Shown here in pieces: positions 28,224 to 37,251 of a stretch of DNA of 64,000 bases. The stretch is from positions 1,240,001 through 1,304,000 of the forward strand of contig NZ_CP042453.1 of NCBI RefSeq assembly GCF_007993735.1, in the 5' to 3' direction. How positions within the stretch are numbered: position 1 is the first letter of the stretch; every line of letters starts with the position of its first letter. Under the pieces are notes generated by a model. It did no database searches, was not told the DNA's origin, and saw only the letters and a program-made list of their open reading frames with translations. The position numbers and the translations under genes were made by a program. The stretch is from Arenimonas daejeonensis (lineage in GTDB: Bacteria; Pseudomonadota; Gammaproteobacteria; Xanthomonadales; Xanthomonadaceae).

Positions 28224-29274
28224 TCAGCGCCGTTCGCGGACTTCGGAAGGGGCTTTGCCGGTCCAGCGCTTGAAGGCGCGGCGGAATTCACGCGCGTCCT
28301 GGAAGCCGATCGCCACGCCGACTTCGGAGACGCGGGCGCCGGGCTTTCCGAGCATCGTTTCGGCGACGTCGCGGCGGACGCGGTCGTGCAGTTCCTGCCA
28401 GCTGGTGCCGGCGCCCTGCAGGTGGCGGCGCAGCGTGCGTTCGGCCAGGTGCAGTTCGGCGGCGATGTCCACCAGGCGCGGCGAATCGGCCAACTGCAGC
28501 CGCAGCAGGTTGCCGACCACCGCGACGATCTCGCTGGTGGAGCGTTCGGCCGGCATCTGTTCGCGGCACAGGGCCAGCACGTGCCGGGCACTGACCGGGT
28601 TGTGCGCGCTCATGGGGGTGTCCAGCCAGTGCCGCGCGATCAGCACGCGGTTGGCCGGCGCGTCGAAGCGCACCTCGCAGCCCAGCACCCTGGCGTAGTC
28701 ATCGGCATTGGGTGGCGGTGGGTAGGCGAGTTCGGTGCGCAGCGGGCTGAAACCGGGGCCGAGCAGGCCGCGGCAAAGCTTCAGGCAGCTCGAGAACAGT
28801 TCCTCGCACAGGAAGGGTTCGATGTCGGGCTCGCGATTGCGCATCCACGCGGTCAACGCGATCTCGTCCGGGCCGTCCTCCGGCAGATTGCCCAACTGCA
28901 GTTCCAGCATCGCCCCGGTGATGGGCGCGTAGTGCACGCCCAGCCGGATCGCTTCGCCGAAATCACTGGCCGTCATCATGGCCAGGCCGAGCAGTCCGAA
29001 ATTGCCGACGTCCTGGCGCTCGCCGATCACCAGCCCGTGGCCGTCGCCGGGCAGGCTGTCCAGGGGCGCGATGGATGATTCCGCAGGCCTGGCGGTAGGA
29101 CACGTAGGCCGGGGCATCGGCCTGGAAGCGGCTGCGGTCCAGGCGGGTGCCGGCGAACCAGCCGTCCGTGGCCACGCCCAGTTCGTCCGCCCGGGTGAGC
29201 AGGCCGACGACGATGCCGTTCTTGATGTTCAGGGCATTGCCGGCGAGTGCGTCGGCGGGGGCGGGCGAGGACAT
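28224..29274 (-). CDS. AraC-family transcriptional regulator (one frameshift)
   Basis: About 349 residues. The N-terminal two thirds match the arabinose-binding-like domain of OruR-type AraC regulators (FGLLGLAMMTASDFGEAIRL, EPFLCEELFSSCLKLCRGLL). The C-terminal DNA-binding domain has LVDIAAELHLAERTLRRHLQ and VGVAIGFQDAREFRRAFKRW. One extra base near 29076 splits the N-terminal part. The start is taken as ATG 29274; an in-frame ATG at 29307 is possible. It is divergent from the beta-helix lipoprotein gene across about 120 bases and convergent with ridA, so it is the likely local regulator of the beta-helix/cytochrome/receptor genes. Its inducer is unknown. Confidence 0.85.
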
Positions 29275-29397
29275 CGGGCGGGGGTCGGGTGGCCGTTTAC
29301 CCCCCATTCTATGCCCGCCTTGGCCCTCGCGAACGGAACCGGGTCACGCCGAGACTATCGCCATGCCCGGCCGTCGTCGGGACGGGGAGGGTTTGGA

Positions 29398-30657
29398 ATG
29401 GCGAAGCGGGTATTCGGGACGGGCAATCGTCCGGTCGGGCTGTTGGGCGCACTGCTGCCGCTGGCGCTGGTGGCCTGCGGTGGGGAAGTCGACCCGGCGG
29501 CTGGACGGAAGGCGGTTGGCGAATCGCCGGAAGCGGCCCTGCTGCGGCAGCAGTTGCTCGACGCCAAGCCCGGCGACGTCATCGAAATCCCTGCCGGCCG
29601 CCACGCCTTCGAACGTGGCCTGAGCCTGCGCGTCGACGGCGTGACCCTGCGCGGCGCCGGCAAGGACAGCACCATCCTCGACTTCAAGGGCCAGATGGCC
29701 GGCGCCGAGGGCCTGCTGGTGAACGCCAGCCAGTTCACCATCGAGAACCTGGCGATCGAGGACGCGAAGGGCGACGGCCTGAAGATCGTCGAAGCCCAGG
29801 ACATCACCATCCGCGGCGTCCGGGTCGAATGGACCAACGGTCCCGACACCGGCAACGGTGCCTACGGCCTGTACCCGGTCAAGACCCGCAACGTGCTGAT
29901 CGAGGATACGGTCGCGATCGGCGCCTCGGACGCCGGCATCTACGTCGGCCAGTCGAAGGACGTGATCGTGCGCAACAGCCGCGCCGAGTACAACGTCGCC
30001 GGCATCGAGATCGAGAACACGGTCAACGCCGACGTGTACGGCAACATCGCCACCAACAACACCGGCGGCATCCTGGTGTTCAACATGCCGGCGCTGGAGC
30101 AGGCGGGCGGCAACGTGCGCGTGTTCGGCAACCAGGTGTACGCCAACAACACCACCAACTTCGGCGCCAAGGGCACGCCGGTATCCAGCGTGCCGGCGGG
30201 CAGCGGCGTGGTGATCAATTCCAATGACGACGTCGAGATCTTCGACAACGACATCCGCGACAACAAGACCGCCAACATCATCATTTCCAGCGTCTATTCG
30301 ACCGGCTACAAGGACGACAGCCGTTCGGAATCCTTCGACCCGTACCCGGAACGCATCTCGGTGCATGGCAACCGCCTCTCGGGCGGCGGCGACGCGCCCG
30401 ACGGCTTCGACCTGAAGGCGCTGAAGGTGGCCACGGTCGGCCTCGGCGGCAGCCTGCCCGACGTGCTGTGGGACGGTTACCTCAATACCGGACTCGCCGG
30501 CGGCCCGCAGATCTGCCTGAGCGGTGTGTCCGGCGTGGTCAACGCCGACGGCCCCAACGGTTACGCCAATGCGCGACTGGATGCCGGTCCGCACGACTGC
30601 ACCCTGCCGCCGCTGCCGGTGGTGGACCTCAAGCGCATGGAAGCCGCCGGTGGTTGA
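29398..30657 (+). CDS. Parallel beta-helix lipoprotein (partner of diheme cytochrome)
   Basis: A 419-residue protein with a lipoprotein signal ending in LLPLALVACGG (Cys27), followed by many right-handed beta-helix turns rich in N, D and G (FTIENLAIEDAKGDGLKIVE, ITIRGVRVEW, VNADVYGNIATNNTGGILVF). It matches the beta-helix family TIGR03805, whose members occur as pairs with the diheme cytochrome family TIGR03806 encoded next; the function of the pair is unknown. The start is the ATG at 29398, after GGGAGGGTTT. The next gene's GTG start overlaps its stop, showing tight coupling. The protein likely sits in the periplasm or on the outer membrane. The frame is intact. Confidence 0.85.
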   Translation: MAKRVFGTGNRPVGLLGALLPLALVACGGEVDPAAGRKAVGESPEAALLRQQLLDAKPGDVIEIPAGRHAFERGLSLRVDGVTLRGAGKDSTILDFKGQMAGAEGLLVNASQFTIENLAIEDAKGDGLKIVEAQDITIRGVRVEWTNGPDTGNGAYGLYPVKTRNVLIEDTVAIGASDAGIYVGQSKDVIVRNSRAEYNVAGIEIENTVNADVYGNIATNNTGGILVFNMPALEQAGGNVRVFGNQVYANNTTNFGAKGTPVSSVPAGSGVVINSNDDVEIFDNDIRDNKTANIIISSVYSTGYKDDSRSESFDPYPERISVHGNRLSGGGDAPDGFDLKALKVATVGLGGSLPDVLWDGYLNTGLAGGPQICLSGVSGVVNADGPNGYANARLDAGPHDCTLPPLPVVDLKRMEAAGG

Positions 30658-31881
30658 GATCGCGACGCCGGTCCGTCGTGTGCGGACCGTTTCCCTGTTC
30701 TGTGTGGCGCTGGCGTTGCTGGCGCTGTTGGCCGGCTGCGGTCGCGAGCCCGCGCCGGTCGTTTTTCATTCCGAAGGCCTGCCCGACACGTTGTCGGCCT
30801 GGCAGCTGTTCGAGGTTGATGACAACCAGCTGGTGCCCAATGCCGGCGTCGTGCGCTACGAGCTCAACACGCCGCTGTTCACCGACTACGCGCACAAGCT
30901 GCGCACGGTCTGGATGCCGGCGGGGAGTTCCACCCCGTACAACGGCGAATCGAGTTTCGACTTCCCGGTCGGCACCATCCTGAGCAAGACCTTCTACTAC
31001 CCGCGCCTGCCGGGCGAGCCGGCAGGCAGCGACCGTGTCGTACGCAGCGAGGATACGGCCGGCGTGCTGCCCGGCGGACGCCTGGCACTGGACCAGGTGC
31101 GCCTGATCGAGACACGGTTGCTGGTACGACGCGAGGACGGCTGGCTCGCCTTGCCCTATGTCTGGAACGACGAACAGTCCGAAGCACGGCTGATGCGTGG
31201 CGGTTCGCTGGTCCGCCTGTCGCTGGTGGATGCCGCCGGCGAAAGCGAGCCGGTCGCTTACGCCGTGCCCGACCAGAACCAGTGCGCCGGTTGCCACGTC
31301 AGCAATGTGCGCGAGAAGCGGATGCTCCCGATCGGCCCGACCGCGCGCAACCTCAACCGCGACCTCGCCTACCTGGCCGAAGACGGCAGCGAATCGATCG
31401 AAAACCAGCTGCAGCACTGGCAGCGCACGGGGATGCTGACGGGCGTGCCGGAAGCCGCGCAGGTTCCGCGCATGGCCAACTGGCGCGACGAGGCAGGGGC
31501 TTCGCTCGACGGCCGTGCCCGCGCCTACCTGGACGCCAACTGCGCCCACTGCCACAGCCCGCGGGGCCCGGGGAACACTTCCGGCATGTGGCTGGGCAGC
31601 GACGTCACCGATCTGCTGCGGCTGGGCCGCTGCAAGCTGCCGATCGCCGCGGGGCAGGGCACCGGCAACAAACGCTACGGCTACGTGCCGGGCGATCCGG
31701 ACGGCTCGATCCTGACCTACCGCATCGAAAGCAACGACCCGGGCGTGATGATGCCGGAGCTGGGTCGCAGCATCGTGCACCGCGAAGGTGCGGCGCTGAT
31801 CCGGGCCTGGATCGCCGCCCAGGACGGCGCCTGCGGCATCGACAACGCTCCACCGGGGTCCGACCCCGCCAACAACAATAA
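30650..31881 (+). CDS. SO2930-family diheme c-type cytochrome lipoprotein (stop codon uncertain)
   Basis: About 410 residues. A lipoprotein signal ends in LALLALLAGC, and two heme-binding motifs, CAGCH (about residues 212-216) and CAHCH (about 298-302), mark a diheme cytochrome. The N-terminal region (LVPNAGVVRYELNTPLFTDY and the TFYYPR segment) and GRLSIVHREGAALIRAW-like C-terminus fit TIGR03806. The GTG at 30650 overlaps the beta-helix stop; a GTG at 30680 is an alternative. As given, the frame has no stop and runs on into the receptor gene. One missing base near the 3' end, the commonest error here, would end it at the TAA at 31879-31881. It presumably passes electrons in the periplasm. 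Confidence 0.8.
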
Positions 31882-31903
31882 CGACTCAACCGGGGATGAA
31901 TCC

Positions 31904-34332
31904 ATGAGGCTTCGCAAGAATCGACTGAGCATGCGGGTGCGCCAGGCGCTGGTGGGTGGCCTTGCGGCGAGCGCGGCGACCTTCGCCATCGCCGCCCAGG
32001 ACGCCGTGCCGGCGACCACCGACCCCGCCACGCTGGACACGATCACCGTGACCGCGCAGAGCCGCGAACAGGACGTCCAGGACGTGCCGATCGCGATGCA
32101 GGTGGTGGACGGCCGCATGATCAACGACCTGGCGGCGGAAGACCTGGGCGACATCGATTCCTACATCCCCGGCCTGGTCGTTGACAGCCAGCAGCCGACC
32201 CAGCCGCGGATCGAACTGCGTGGCATCAGTACCTCCGACTTCGGCATCGGCACCGATCCGGCGGTAGGCATCTACGTGGACGGCGTTTATGCCGGACGTG
32301 GCGGCGGCGTGCTGCTGCCCTTCGTGGACGTCGAACGCATCGAGGTGCTGAAAGGCCCGCAGGGCACCCTGTTCGGCCGCAACACCGCGGCCGGCGCGGT
32401 CGCCATCGTCACCAACCGGCCCGACCTGGAGTTCGACGCCAACGCGACGGCCCGTTTCGGCGAGGACGGCAAGCAGTACTTAAGGGCATGCTCAACCTTC
32501 CGGTGGGCGAGGATTCGGCCTTCCGCTTCGTCGGCCTGTCCGACCAGGCCGACGGCTGGCTGCAGGACGCCAACACCGGCCAGGACCTGGCGCCGGAAGA
32601 CACCTGGGCCACGCGCGCCGCCTTCAGCACGCGTTTCGGCGAAAACACCACGGCCTGGATTTATGGGACCACGAAGAGCTCGACCAGCTCGGCCAGGCCA
32701 CCATCGGCGTGGTCGCACTGCCGCCGGCGCCGGGACGCATCCCGTTGCCGCTGGACGAGACCTCGTACCTGGACCCGTTCAACACGCCGGCCACGGTGGA
32801 CGCCGAAGGCAACGAGGAATCGCGGCGTTTCGACGGTGTCACGCTGGTGGTGGACCACGCCTTCACCTGGGGGCGCGCTGACCTCGACCACGGCCTGGAA
32901 GGACTACGACTCGCTCAATCGCGTCGAGGAGGACGGCACCGACCGCCTCTACCTCTACGTGGATTCGACCAACACCGAATCGAACTCGACCTTCTACCAG
33001 GAGTTCAAGTTCAGCGGCGGCAACGACCGCCTGGACTGGGTGATGGGCGCCAGCTACTTCAGCGAGTCGGCCGACCAGACCAGCGAGGTCAACGCGTTCA
33101 CCGACTCGGTGGACAGCATCCTGGCCAACCTGGGCATGGCGCCGACCCCGGACGGCACCCTGTTCGGCTTCACCACGGCGGTGATGCAGGCCAACGGCAT
33201 CCCGCTGTCGCTGCTGGGCCACCGCTGGAACGAGAAGTTCGTCAACGGCGTCGACACCACCGCCTACGCGCTGTACGGCGACGTGATCTGGCACACCACC
33301 GACCGCCTGAACCTGACCTTCGGCCTGCGTTACACCTACGACGAGAAGGACTTCACCTGGTTCAACGACATGCGCAGCGCGCCGACGCTCGATGCCACCC
33401 TGGACCAGATGGAAGCGCTGGGCATCTTCGGCCTGCTGGGCATCCCGAGGGAGATGTACGAGTTCGACATCGCCTTCATCGACCCGCCGGCGATGGCCAA
33501 CAAGGGCATCCTGAACGGCGCCTCGCAGTCCTGGGACGACTTCAGCCCGCGCTTCGTCGCCGACTACCACTTCACCGACGACCTGATGGGCTTCGCCTCG
33601 CTGGCCAAGGGCTACAAGGCCGGTGGCTTCAACTCGCTGCAGATCGGCAGCGAGTTCGCCAACGAGGAAGTCTGGAACTTCGAGCTCGGCGTCAAACATT
33701 CGCTGCGCGACTACCGCCTGCGCTACAACGCCTCGGTCTACCACTACCAGTACGACGACCGCCAGGCGATCCGCCTGGACACCACCACCGCCATCCCGCG
33801 CTACGTCGTCGACACCTCCGACCTCGAGGCCTGGGGCATGGACTTCGACATGCACTGGCAGGCCACCGACGGGCTGACCCTGGATTTCGTCGCGGCCTAC
33901 ATCGACTCGACCTACAAGGACTACATGACGCCCGAGGGCGATGACCTGGCCGGCCAGCCGACCGGCACGCCGGAGTGGTCGATCGCCGGCGGCTTCACCT
34001 ACCTGTGGATGCTCGGCGACGCCGGCGACCTGCGTCTGGCCCTGCGCCACGCCTACCGCGGCGAGACCCGCTGCAGCGACGAGTCCGAAGCGCAGGGCAC
34101 CTGCGGTGTCAGCCCGGTGCTGAGGCTGGGCGAGTCGCAGGAGCGTACCGACGTCCGCCTGGGCTGGGCTTCGGCCGACGGAAAATTCGGTGTCGCCGTG
34201 TACGGCAACAACGTCTTCGACAACCAGTACGTCACCGCGCTCGGCACCTACGGCAAGACCGTGCTGGGCACCGTCGGCGCGCGGGTGAGCGAGCCGCGCA
34301 CCTGGGGCGTGGAGATGAGTGTCGATTTCTGA
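31904..34332 (+). CDS. TonB-dependent receptor (three frameshifts)
   Basis: An outer-membrane receptor of about 809 residues. A signal region (VGGLAASAATFAIAAQ) precedes the TonB box-like TLDTITVTAQ. The plug domain shows VPIAMQVVDGRMINDLAAED, PRIELRGISTSDFGIGTD, GIYVDGVYAGR and VERIEVLKGPQGTLFGRNTA. The barrel ends in the aromatic VSEPRTWGVEMSVDF. It is of the siderophore/complex-substrate type common in Caulobacter- and Xanthomonas-like bacteria; the ligand is unknown. The frame changes near 32480 and 32665 (one base missing each) and 32878 (one base extra). It is the last gene of the block and ends at a strong terminator, so it probably imports or exports the substrate handled by the two lipoproteins upstream. 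Confidence 0.88.
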
Positions 34333-34391
34333 TCGGCGTGTTGTCGCGGACCCTCCCCGGGCCGCGGCATGGAGCGAACGGTCTTTCCCCA

Positions 34392-34420
34392 CCCCGGCAC
34401 CTCGTGTGCCGGGGTTTTTT
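34392..34420 (+). terminator. Strong intrinsic terminator after the TonB-dependent receptor
   Basis: A perfect 9-bp stem (CCCCGGCAC, 34392-34400, with GTGCCGGGG, 34406-34414), a five-base loop and a T6 run at 34415-34420. It closes the accessory block just before recG. Confidence 0.9.
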
Positions 34421-34449: not shown

Positions 34450-36555
34450 ATGCCCAAGCGCAGCAACGCCCCCACGGTGGATCCACTCTCGCAAGCCGTG
34501 ACGGCGTTGCCAGGCGTGGGGCCCGTGGTCGCCGGGAAGCTGGCGGCGAGAGGCCTGCTGAGCGTGCAGGACCTTTGGCTGCACTTGCCGCTGCGCTACG
34601 AAGACCGCACGCGCGTCACGCCGATCGCGAACCTGGTGCCGTCACAGCCGGCGCAGGTCGAGGCGCGGGTGGAGGCGGTCGAGCGCAGCTTCCGGTACCG
34701 GCCCTTGCTGCGCGTGGTGGTTTCGGATGACTCGCGCGGGACTCTGGTGTTGCGCTTTTTCCATTTCGGCAAGGCGCAGCTGGCGCAGTTCGTGCCCGGC
34801 CGCCGGATCCTGTGTTACGGCGAGGCGCGGCCGGGGCAGCACGGGCTGGAGATGGTGCATCCGAGTTACCGGCTGCTGGCCGACGACGCCGACGCGGTGA
34901 TCCGCGACCGGCTCGACCCGGTCTATCCGGCGGTCGAGGGCCTGGGGCCGCAGTCGCTGTCGCGGCTGATCGGCGAGGCGCTGCGGCTCCTGCCGCCTGC
35001 CGAGGCGCTGGAACTGCTGCCGGCCGACCTGCGTGCGCGCCTGCAGCTGCCGACGCTGCGCGATGCGCTGCTGACCGCGCATCGCCCGCCGCCCGACGCG
35101 GACCTGGCGCAGTTCGCCCTGGGCGTGCACCCGGCGCAGCGGCGGCTGGCGCTGGAGGAACTGCTGGCGCACCACCTGAGCCTGCGCCGCCAGCGCATCG
35201 CACTGCGTGCGCATGGGGCGATGCCGGTGCGACCTCCAGGCAAGCTGGCGGCCGCGCTGGGCAAGCGCCTGAAGTTCAAGCTCACCGGCGCCCAACAGCG
35301 CGTGCTGGAAGAGGTGGCGCGCGACATGTCACGGCCCGAGCCGATGCTGCGGCTGGTGCAGGGCGACGTCGGCAGCGGCAAGACCGTGGTCGCTGCCCTG
35401 GCGGCGGCCAATGCCGTCGAGGCCGGCCGCCAGGTCGCGCTGATGGCGCCGACCGAGCTGCTGGCCGAACAGCATCTGGCCAACTTCCGTGCCTGGCTCG
35501 AGCCGCTGGGTGTGCAGGTGGCCTGGCTGGCCGGCAAGGTCACCGGCAAGGCACGCACCGCGGCATTGGCCGAGATCGCCTCGGGGCGCGCCCAGGTCGT
35601 GGTCGGCACGCATGCGCTGATGCAGGACAAGGTGGTGTTCTCCAGCCTGGCACTGGCCATCGTCGACGAACAGCACCGCTTCGGCGTGCACCAGCGCCTG
35701 GCCCTGCGCGACAAGGGCCTGGACGGCAGCCAGGTGCCGCACCAGCTGGTGATGACCGCCACGCCGATCCCGCGCACGCTGGCGATGTCGGCCTACGCCG
35801 ACCTGGACGTGTCGGTGATCGACGAGATGCCGCCGGGCCGCACCCCGGTGACCACGGTCGCGGTCAGCGGCGAACGCCGCGGCGAGGTGGTCGAACGCAT
35901 TCGCGCCGCCTGCGCCGAAGGGCGGCAGGCCTATTGGGTCTGCACGCTGATCGAAGAAAGCGAGGAAGTGGAAGGCCAGGCCGCGCAGTCCACCTTCGAA
36001 CAACTCGGCCAGCTGCTGCCGGAACTGCGCCTGGGCCTGCTGCACGGGCGAATGAAGCCTGCCGAGAAGCAGGCGGTGATGGCACGTTTCAAGGCTGGCG
36101 AACTGCAGTTGCTGGTCGCCACCACCGTGATCGAGGTCGGCGTGGATGTGCCCAATGCCAGCCTGATGATCATCGAGAACGCCGAACGCCTCGGCCTGGC
36201 CCAGCTGCACCAGCTGCGTGGCCGGGTCGGGCGCGGCGCGGCGGCGTCGAGCTGCGTGCTGATGTACAAGCCGCCGCTGTCGGCGATGGCGCGCGAGCGG
36301 CTGGAGGTGATGCGCGCCAGCACCGACGGTTTCCTGATCGCGGAAAAAGACCTCGAGCTGCGCGGCCCCGGCGAGTTGCTGGGCACGCGCCAGACCGGAC
36401 TGGCCAGTTTCCGTGTCGCCGACCTGGTGCGGGATGCCGGGTTGTTGCCGACCGTGCACGAAGTGGCGGAAACCCTGCTGGCCGAGCAGCCCGCGCTGGC
36501 CGACCGGCTGGTGCGGCGCTGGGTGGGCGGCGCGGCCCGGTTCGCCGGCGCCTGA
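34450..36555 (+). CDS. recG: ATP-dependent DNA helicase RecG
   Basis: A 701-residue superfamily 2 helicase that reverses stalled forks and migrates branched DNA. The N-terminal wedge domain starts TALPGVGPVVAGKLAARGLL. Helicase motifs follow: LVQGDVGSGKTVVAALAA (Walker A), IVDEQHRFGVHQR (DEQH), MTATPIPRTLAM, and the C-terminal TTVIEVGVDVPNASLMIIEN and QLRGRVGRG (motif VI). The start is ATG 34450, which lies 30 bases beyond the terminator of the accessory block. In E. coli recG belongs with spoT; here it is separated from spoT-ridA by the block. The frame is intact. Confidence 0.96.
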   Translation: MPKRSNAPTVDPLSQAVTALPGVGPVVAGKLAARGLLSVQDLWLHLPLRYEDRTRVTPIANLVPSQPAQVEARVEAVERSFRYRPLLRVVVSDDSRGTLVLRFFHFGKAQLAQFVPGRRILCYGEARPGQHGLEMVHPSYRLLADDADAVIRDRLDPVYPAVEGLGPQSLSRLIGEALRLLPPAEALELLPADLRARLQLPTLRDALLTAHRPPPDADLAQFALGVHPAQRRLALEELLAHHLSLRRQRIALRAHGAMPVRPPGKLAAALGKRLKFKLTGAQQRVLEEVARDMSRPEPMLRLVQGDVGSGKTVVAALAAANAVEAGRQVALMAPTELLAEQHLANFRAWLEPLGVQVAWLAGKVTGKARTAALAEIASGRAQVVVGTHALMQDKVVFSSLALAIVDEQHRFGVHQRLALRDKGLDGSQVPHQLVMTATPIPRTLAMSAYADLDVSVIDEMPPGRTPVTTVAVSGERRGEVVERIRAACAEGRQAYWVCTLIEESEEVEGQAAQSTFEQLGQLLPELRLGLLHGRMKPAEKQAVMARFKAGELQLLVATTVIEVGVDVPNASLMIIENAERLGLAQLHQLRGRVGRGAAASSCVLMYKPPLSAMARERLEVMRASTDGFLIAEKDLELRGPGELLGTRQTGLASFRVADLVRDAGLLPTVHEVAETLLAEQPALADRLVRRWVGGAARFAGA

Positions 36556-36681: not shown

Positions 36682-37251
36682 ATGAAAATCCGTCCGATGT
36701 TGTTCGCCCTCGTCGCCGCATCCACGGCGACCCTGGTCGGTGCAAGCGCTTCCTTCGCGTCGACCAGCTGGAAAGATCCGGGCCAGTCGCGGCAGGCCAC
36801 GCGCGACATGGTCGAGCAGACCATCGATCGCCTCTACAGCCTGGAACCCAGCGCCCGCCGCGCCATCCGGCAGTCGGGGTACTACGCCGTCTTCGATATC
36901 GCCGCCGACGGCAGCGGCCGGGGCATGGTGGTCGAGGAGTCGATCCGCGAGGAAACACTGATGGGTGTCAGCGGCTCGCAGCCGGCGACTCCGGGAGGTT
37001 ACCGCCAGGTCTGGGTGTTCAAGACGCCCGAGGCCTATCGCGAGTTCATCGCGCATGGCCACGCGTTTGCCGACGGAACCCGCCTGGAGCCGAATCTGGC
37101 CCTCGGCGCGCCGTGGCCGCCGGGCGCGCTGAGAGTCGCCGATGACGTCACGCTCTACCACATCACCAACGAAGGCCTGGTAATGGACCTGACGATGCCG
37201 GCGAGTGCGTACCGGCGCAACATCGCCTTCGATCGCACAGGGCGCCTCTGA
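36682..37251 (+). CDS. Secreted protein, possibly divergent SYLF/Ysc84-like
   Basis: A 189-residue protein with a Sec signal peptide (FALVAASTATLVGASASFAS). The rest resembles the SYLF (Ysc84) lipid-binding fold in order: a helical lead with LYSLEPSARRAIRQSGYYAV, a glycine-rich turn (DGSGRGMVVEE), a VFKTPEAYREFIAHG segment like the family's VFK-x-x-x-A-L-x-x-F, and a closing VTLYHITNEGLVMDLTM. The match is remote and the function is unknown. It is preceded by GAGGAGGAC and stands alone between recG and the nucleoside hydrolase, with no operon partner. Confidence 0.5.
   Translation: MKIRPMLFALVAASTATLVGASASFASTSWKDPGQSRQATRDMVEQTIDRLYSLEPSARRAIRQSGYYAVFDIAADGSGRGMVVEESIREETLMGVSGSQPATPGGYRQVWVFKTPEAYREFIAHGHAFADGTRLEPNLALGAPWPPGALRVADDVTLYHITNEGLVMDLTMPASAYRRNIAFDRTGRL

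Follow-up and report, generated by a model that had tools for sequence, protein, structure and literature searches.

The window analyzed here is a 64,000-nucleotide stretch of Arenimonas daejeonensis DNA (contig NZ_CP042453.1, positions 1,240,001 to 1,304,000). Between ridA and recG it holds four genes: a divergent araC-type regulator gene and genes for a TIGR03805 parallel beta-helix protein, a TIGR03806/SO2930-family diheme c-type cytochrome and a TonB-dependent receptor. Open reading frames (ORFs) and profile scores confirm the families that an earlier note had named here. The beta-helix/cytochrome pair is the constant core of the locus, and its four-gene form belongs mainly to Lysobacterales. 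We tentatively favor, while holding it somewhat short of probable, the reading that the receptor takes up a compound and that a beta-helix-bound substrate undergoes heme-catalyzed oxidation, under an AraC switch with one target.

Conservation of the pair and of the four-gene unit

To follow the locus across genomes, we used three samples: 61 genomes of the order, the window's included; a named set formed by the best 80 of 464 related stretches from a pattern scan of 84,980 species genomes; and an even draw of 398 genomes from the phylum. The cytochrome exceeds its cut-off in 7 of the 61 order genomes, and the same 7 carry a beta-helix protein above 420 bits. The six carriers other than the window genome all have the identical order of araC, beta-helix, cytochrome and receptor. 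At 78 of the 80 named loci the beta-helix gene adjoins the cytochrome gene; the other two loci (L080 and L098) start at most 150 bases from it. A receptor gene lies within 6 kb of the pair at 73 named loci, the exceptions being five Microbulbifer loci, L098 and L085 (at the latter the contig ends). An AraC-type gene lies within the same distance at 66, one of which (L054) is a weak 50-bit match. Receptor and regulator are thus conserved beside the pair in Lysobacterales, and the common gene order, together with the shared site and operator described below, bears out the proposal that the four genes form one unit. In the window, the cytochrome's GTG start overlaps the stop codon of the beta-helix gene.

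The earlier statement that TIGR03805 and TIGR03806 occur together also holds in the wider phylum, where the cytochrome passes its cut-off in 37 of 398 genomes and all 37 have an adjacent beta-helix above cut-off (at least 289 bits). The pair is fused in one open frame in four genomes (G273, G347, G387 and G300), and likewise in G137 and G251, with a cytochrome part below the cut-off. In six further genomes a weaker beta-helix (178-187 bits) occurs without any match to the cytochrome. Two points count against the reading that we favor. First, the pair often occurs without receptor or regulator: of 39 phylum loci (36 with a beta-helix), 7 have a receptor nearby and 5 an araC gene, as counted with hidden Markov models (HMMs) built partly from those loci, some of which end early, and two of the seven receptor matches are weak and on the opposite strand. 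Because most wider-phylum loci lack both partners, the pair and the four-gene system have to be kept apart. Second, the pairwise distances of the cytochrome correlate with those of the beta-helix (0.90, 95 loci), the receptor (0.75, 76 loci) and AraC (0.66, 71 loci), but these values have no control and are partly a product of shared ancestry. Three loci that are Shewanella-like by gene content (L103, L104 and L105) have a fused beta-helix/cytochrome gene with an AraC-type gene nearby, and two of them (L103 and L104) bear a second cytochrome copy.

An old insertion between ridA and recG

The cassette is flanked by both ridA and recG at 38 of the 80 named loci, and three more show one flank before the contig ends. 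Among relatives, 20 recG starts could be read, of which 19 show ridA and one lies where the contig ended. In 18 of the 19 readable cases the site is empty, with a gap of 13-88 nt between the aligned edges of ridA and recG; in the remaining one (G034) the two genes are 1793 nt apart. In three genomes (G004, G007 and G036) the ridA-recG site is empty and the cassette lies elsewhere. The first two (loci L012 and L013) are of the window's own genus, and their cassette is of another lineage. On a FastTree phylogeny of 82 pairs, with two genomes entered twice, 5 changes of location are needed as against a mean of 27.7 after shuffling. The shared site and the few changes of location indicate that the block is an old insertion in Lysobacteraceae, which has been kept, lost and sometimes moved. 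The earlier note had described an accessory block inserted into a core gene cluster; insertion relative to the ridA-recG adjacency stands, but the shared site and the tree rule out a recent one.

The regulator and its predicted operator

The regulator gene (28224..29307, minus strand) encodes Arabinose_bd and HTH_18 domains. Its main ORF (28224-29117) scores 115.1 bits with PF12625 and 64.7 bits with HTH_18 (cut-off 33.6). A predicted AraC operator, at 29290..29328 in the interval between araC and the beta-helix gene, consists of two half-sites in direct repeat with a spacing of about 22 bp. The pattern reads TTGTCCG[CT]TTTGCCCCCC, 3-4 bases, TATGCCG, about five bases and GCCCT.

Of 84 upstream regions, the window's included, 46 hold a loose form of the pattern; the pattern was derived from the same sequences, with two genomes represented twice, and the count has no shuffled counterpart. 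Within these 84 regions the pattern was found neither in the Dyella, Rhodanobacter, betaproteobacterial and Microbulbifer loci nor in nine Lysobacteraceae loci (L026, L028, L029, L031, L037, L044, L057, L070 and L072). We scanned 32 whole genomes that were picked as carriers, mostly for having shown the site. A match occurs in 31 of them, all but G149, with 34 matches in total; the three extra ones, in G003, G034 and G594, are more divergent. Judged by sequence rather than place by place, the matches are those upstream of the beta-helix genes. A reversed control pattern has no match in the 32 genomes, and the core pattern occurs once in the window's own genome. Since the predicted operator is nearly unique per genome, the regulator appears to have a single target.

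The diheme cytochrome and its possible relation to cytochrome P460

The cytochrome gene (30650..31903, plus strand; end approximate) encodes a lipobox, LAGC, and the protein scores 383.8 bits with TIGR03806 (385.8 in the genome search), above the cut-off of 313.3. Heme 1 is bound at CAGCH (amino acids 212-216) and heme 2 at CAHCH (298-302), and M368 is conserved. The alignment has 125 rows, 14 of which are gapped in this region, apparently because a single matched stretch was cut out; among the 111 sequences with letters there, the Cys and His of both CXXCH motifs are kept in all, and R85, K113 and E154 in 110, 111 and 111, respectively. A lipobox is found in 77 of the 80 named-set cytochromes and in 14 of 39 in the phylum set. 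A confident AlphaFold2 model has a mean predicted local distance difference test (pLDDT) value of 91.2 and a predicted template modeling (pTM) score of 0.87. A sequence search of PDB returned only seven short cytochrome matches at E up to 1, and a Foldseek search with the whole model had no match at E of 0.001 or less.

The N-terminal heme domain (30770..31315, plus strand; amino acids ~41-222), which contains R85, K113, E154 and the first CXXCH, may be a remote, sub-threshold relative of cytochromes P460 and c'-beta. In the Foldseek search, cytochrome P460 (6hiu) ranks sixth and has the best target-normalized TM-score (0.36) among the 50 matches listed. With an E limit of 10, 31 of the 55 members match the Pfam P460 family (PF16694), the best at 6.1e-4. 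Ten proteins were scanned more closely: eight of the twelve best in a list from our own P460 HMM, plus two distant proteins. Of these ten, seven show a Pfam P460 match, which extends outside CXXCH in six, and five give in-register, sub-threshold matches outside CXXCH (E 6.5e-4 to 0.016). With CXXCH cut off, 57 N-domain rows have a median of 4.3 bits and a best of 10.6, though they come from related members and are not independent; shuffled controls without CXXCH (958 rows) have a median of -3.0 and a best of 5.2, and reversed copies reach 1.4 bits at best. In hhalign comparisons without CXXCH, P460 ranks first among 38 unrelated families.

R85 and K113 fall on the Arg and Lys columns of P460 in both the HMM and the hhalign alignments, which are remote; in the HMM alignment the window cytochrome itself scores -0.6 bits and its relatives 6 to 8. 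The Lys column is that of the P460 heme cross-link, and this lysine is kept in all 111 sequences. R85 may correspond to the capping residue of P460, and E154 to its distal carboxylate, the latter by visual comparison of the strand order. The R85-K113 spacing of 28 equals that of Arg50-Lys78 in McP460, as given in an excerpt of PMC11928373.

A number of observations weigh against this relation. The same excerpt gives a spacing of 30 for Phe76-Lys106 of NsP460, so 28 is not general (PMC11928373). The 6hiu match has an E of 0.2 and a TM-score under 0.5. None of the proteins reaches the Pfam gathering score of 27, the best of the ten relatives having 20.5 bits; three (L067, L018 and L019) have no Pfam P460 match, and the window cytochrome matches by its CXXCH stretch only, at 12.4 bits. 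Six plain heme families each find matches in 33 to 54 of the 55 members, at least as many as P460, so the P460 tally alone proves nothing. The hhalign result amounts to 14% at most, with a score of 25.3 as against 22.4 for the best unrelated family; it drops to 16.7, within background, against a narrower P460 type set, and other heme comparisons score equally high when CXXCH is kept. The Glu is lacking in L142, as judged by eye. The profile-profile comparison is too weak to decide the matter. Taken together, the sequence evidence is mostly consistent with a remote P460 relation rather than membership, and not every test agrees.

The beta-helix protein and a proposed domain exchange

The beta-helix protein (29398..30657, plus strand) scores 433.5 bits with TIGR03805, well within the family cut-off of 141.5, and is a predicted lipoprotein with the lipobox LVAC. 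A lipobox is present at 73 of 78 named loci and in 16 of 36 members of the phylum set. The phylum misses are mostly in genomes outside the class, and for the cytochrome they also include fused and larger proteins. Eleven residues (Y156, Y159, D178, Y182, Q185, N199, E204, E206, N207, N221 and F228) are identical in all 119 sequences with letters there, and W145 in 120 of 120. These invariant residues may form a polar strip resembling an active site. No sequence relative of the protein was found in PDB at E up to 0.1.

In the fused pairs the cytochrome module follows the beta-helix. At L136, L137 and L142, a distant cytochrome module (TIGR03806 149-239 bits, below cut-off) lies instead C-terminal to a glucose/sorbosone dehydrogenase domain (PF07995). 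We infer that the beta-helix replaces a module with a role in substrate handling or catalysis. With dehydrogenase domains in the beta-helix slot, the cytochrome module resembles the part of an oxidation enzyme that accepts the electrons. SO2930-like modules also lie inside very large proteins (L136, L137, L142, L138 and L101); the first three carry in part CBM26, F5/8, ThuA or PSCyt/PSD domains, and the module of L101 adjoins a DUF1552 gene.

The genes around the pair hint at aldehyde or lipid metabolism, but they disagree on any one substrate. An aldehyde dehydrogenase gene lies 3' of the receptor at six of nine clustered Rhodanobacteraceae loci (two of the six were scanned). At L128 and L129, genes for aldehyde dehydrogenase, thiolase and short-chain dehydrogenase lie within about 8 kb of the pair, with a P450 gene in one of them. 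L103 has a VolA/Pla-1 phospholipase gene. On a Novosphingobium plasmid (L100), the pair adjoins receptor genes, one of which is interrupted by an IS5 transposase, and the stretch also bears genes for aldehyde dehydrogenase, pyrroloquinoline quinone (PQQ) alcohol dehydrogenase and methylamine dehydrogenase.

Proposed function and alternative explanations

Under the oxidation reading, the AraC-type regulator would sense a compound and switch on the three-gene operon through the double-half-site operator. The TonB receptor would import the compound, alone or as part of a larger carrier, across the outer membrane, and the membrane-anchored beta-helix protein could hold it in the conserved polar strip against the partner cytochrome. 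The oxidation would take place at heme 1 in the P460-like domain, whose distal side would be open and bordered by R85, K113 and E154; heme 2, of class I type with M368 as the likely ligand, would hand the electrons on to the periplasmic pool of cytochrome c and to a terminal oxidase. The observations under this scheme are the conservation of the unit, the fusion of the pair, the conservation and rarity of the operator, the anchoring signals and the conserved residues. From these we infer the relation to P460, the open heme 1 and the catalysis there; that the reaction is oxidation and not reduction, that the proteins sit at the outer membrane and the choice of any substrate are likewise conjectural. 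The earlier note's idea of uptake coupled to periplasmic oxidation is still a proposal, now with more support.

The pair could, alternatively, be a pure electron conduit, that is, an outer-membrane module for extracellular electron transfer in which the beta-helix serves as scaffold or docking surface and no catalysis takes place. In Shewanella oneidensis, SO_2930 and SO_2931 appear in the outer-membrane/extracellular column of a localization table (PMC4837345), and SO2931 is among the genes deleted in an omc-all strain (PMC5829830); the excerpts of these two papers give no single-gene phenotype, and this listing thus leaves room for a pure electron-transfer role. The lipoboxes in most of the named set fit this explanation. 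We nevertheless consider it unlikely, because the cytochrome has two hemes only, members outside the class mostly lack a lipobox, and the invariant polar strip and the distant modules fused to dehydrogenase domains suggest a substrate.

A little less likely still is an oxidative polysaccharide system, in which the beta-helix would bind or cleave a uronate-type polymer and the cytochrome would oxidize it. In its favor, the solved folds nearest to a model of the fused pair are the mannuronan epimerase AlgE4 (E 1.4e-9) and the Vibrio polysaccharide lyase RbmB, matches assigned to the helix part on grounds of fold, and the L142 protein combines the distant cytochrome module with CBM26 domains, which are starch-binding. 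The fused model has a mean pLDDT of 78.8 and a pTM of 0.56 and is good per domain, and no interface was read from it because the linker is disordered. However, D-P-H, which we take to be the catalytic motif of AlgE/AlgG epimerases, is absent: YG.D.H occurs in 0 of 120 beta-helix sequences and YG.YPV in 119 of 120, and on this ground we reject an epimerase role. Moreover, no glycan-degradation gene was recognized among the 45 most frequent neighbor clusters of 68 loci, inspected by eye and not by a family-by-family scan.

Metal-chelate handling is a rather improbable explanation. TonB receptors typically take metal chelates, and here the receptor would import a chelate and the cytochrome reduce the metal for release, or a NosD-like beta-helix would load a metal center. 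The beta-helix protein matches NosD (PF05048) at 41.4 bits, but its score with the NosD model TIGR04247 is 30.8 bits, far under the cut-off of 300. The receptor gene (31904..34332, plus strand) encodes a plug (~31904-32480; PF07715, 67.5 bits) and a barrel (32488-34332; PF00593, 87.5 bits); the plug half matches siderophore receptor models weakly and far under their cut-offs, although scanning the receptor as two halves lowers the scores. The frequent lack of a receptor beside the pair also speaks against this explanation. Finally, chance neighborhood of the four genes is hardly credible, for although most wider-phylum loci lack receptor and araC beside the pair, the identical order in 7 carriers among 61 order genomes, the shared site and the shared operator rule it out for Lysobacterales.

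Beyond the oxidation reading of this locus, the SO2930 family as a whole might be a large, unrecognized branch of P460-type heme enzymes, perhaps with a lysine-linked heme, in which each enzyme is joined to an electron-transfer cytochrome of its own and to a substrate module that can be exchanged (beta-helix or sugar dehydrogenase propeller). In Lysobacteraceae it would be coupled to a TonB receptor of its own and to an AraC switch with one target, making up a new class of surface-linked heme oxidase system. We regard this broader proposal as doubtful.

Frame breaks and flanking features

Several genes of the window are broken in frame. The N-terminal part of araC resumes in another frame (28963-29307), with the break near 29.02-29.06 kb. 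Receptor plug and barrel are in different frames, broken near 32.48 kb, and cytochrome and plug form a single stop-free open frame of 786 aa in this assembly. Relative to Arenimonas terrae (L020), frames shift in araC, the receptor gene, spoT, the nucleoside hydrolase gene and others. Across 21.0-42.5 kb, the shifts outside the cassette lie near 26.32 and 27.0 kb in spoT, in a gene near 22.96 kb, near 37.85 kb in the nucleoside hydrolase gene and in a minus-strand stretch near 41.05-41.4 kb. The completeness of the source genome is stated as 86%. Because the shifts hit many neighboring genes, assembly indels appear more likely than many pseudogenes as the cause.

The unit ends in a terminator-like hairpin with a 10-pair stem followed by a T run (34391..34415, plus strand), where the earlier note had seen a strong terminator. 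The hairpin is the longest of three such sites, but shuffled sequences average 3.5, so their number is not above chance. The cassette is flanked by ridA, of the Rid family, and by recG (34450-36555; 1081.4 bits). An ORF of 189 aa lies 3' of recG (36682-37251) and has no Pfam or NCBIfam match at E up to 0.001.

Significance and comparison with known systems

The names of the TIGR03805 and TIGR03806 models carry no function, and among the open-access literature matches listed, none was recognizable as giving a function of the pair or a link to P460. Four features seem to be new here: a conserved AraC-type double-site operator, predicted to be nearly unique per genome; a heme-1 domain that may resemble cytochrome P460 (remotely and below threshold), with near-invariant Arg, Lys and Glu; distant cytochrome relatives fused to sugar dehydrogenase domains; and a putative invariant polar strip on the beta-helix. 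A family pair without assigned function, present in 37 of 398 phylum genomes, thereby gains a testable biochemical hypothesis, candidate residues and a domain swap that indicates its role, and the predicted operator makes the inducer findable. If the P460 reading is true, the heme chemistry of hydroxylamine-oxidizing and gas-binding proteins would extend far beyond what the P460 family model picks up.

A close known counterpart is the TIGR03805/TIGR03806 pair of S. oneidensis (SO_2930/SO_2931): the window genes pass both curated cut-offs and lie side by side, whereas here the pair belongs to a unit of four genes that includes a receptor and a regulator and has an operator. The window regulator finds its best NCBIfam match in QhpR (149.5 bits, with the longer piece of the broken gene), as does the regulator of L103 (111 bits), but both remain under the cut-off of 250. 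A right-handed beta-helix fold is common to the beta-helix protein, the AlgE/AlgG epimerases and PL6-type lyases; the protein differs from AlgE/AlgG in having Y-P-V in the position of D-P-H. PF07995 proteins with a C-terminal SO2930-like module likewise place a related cytochrome module behind a catalytic domain, with a dehydrogenase domain where our locus has the beta-helix. With cytochromes P460 and c'-beta, the SO2930 protein appears to share the motif order, an Arg and a Lys in register, a GW motif, a carboxylate on the next strand (by eye) and a CXXCH near the domain end; unlike them, it stays under the family's gathering score, has a long variable stretch between K and E and is followed by a second cytochrome c domain.

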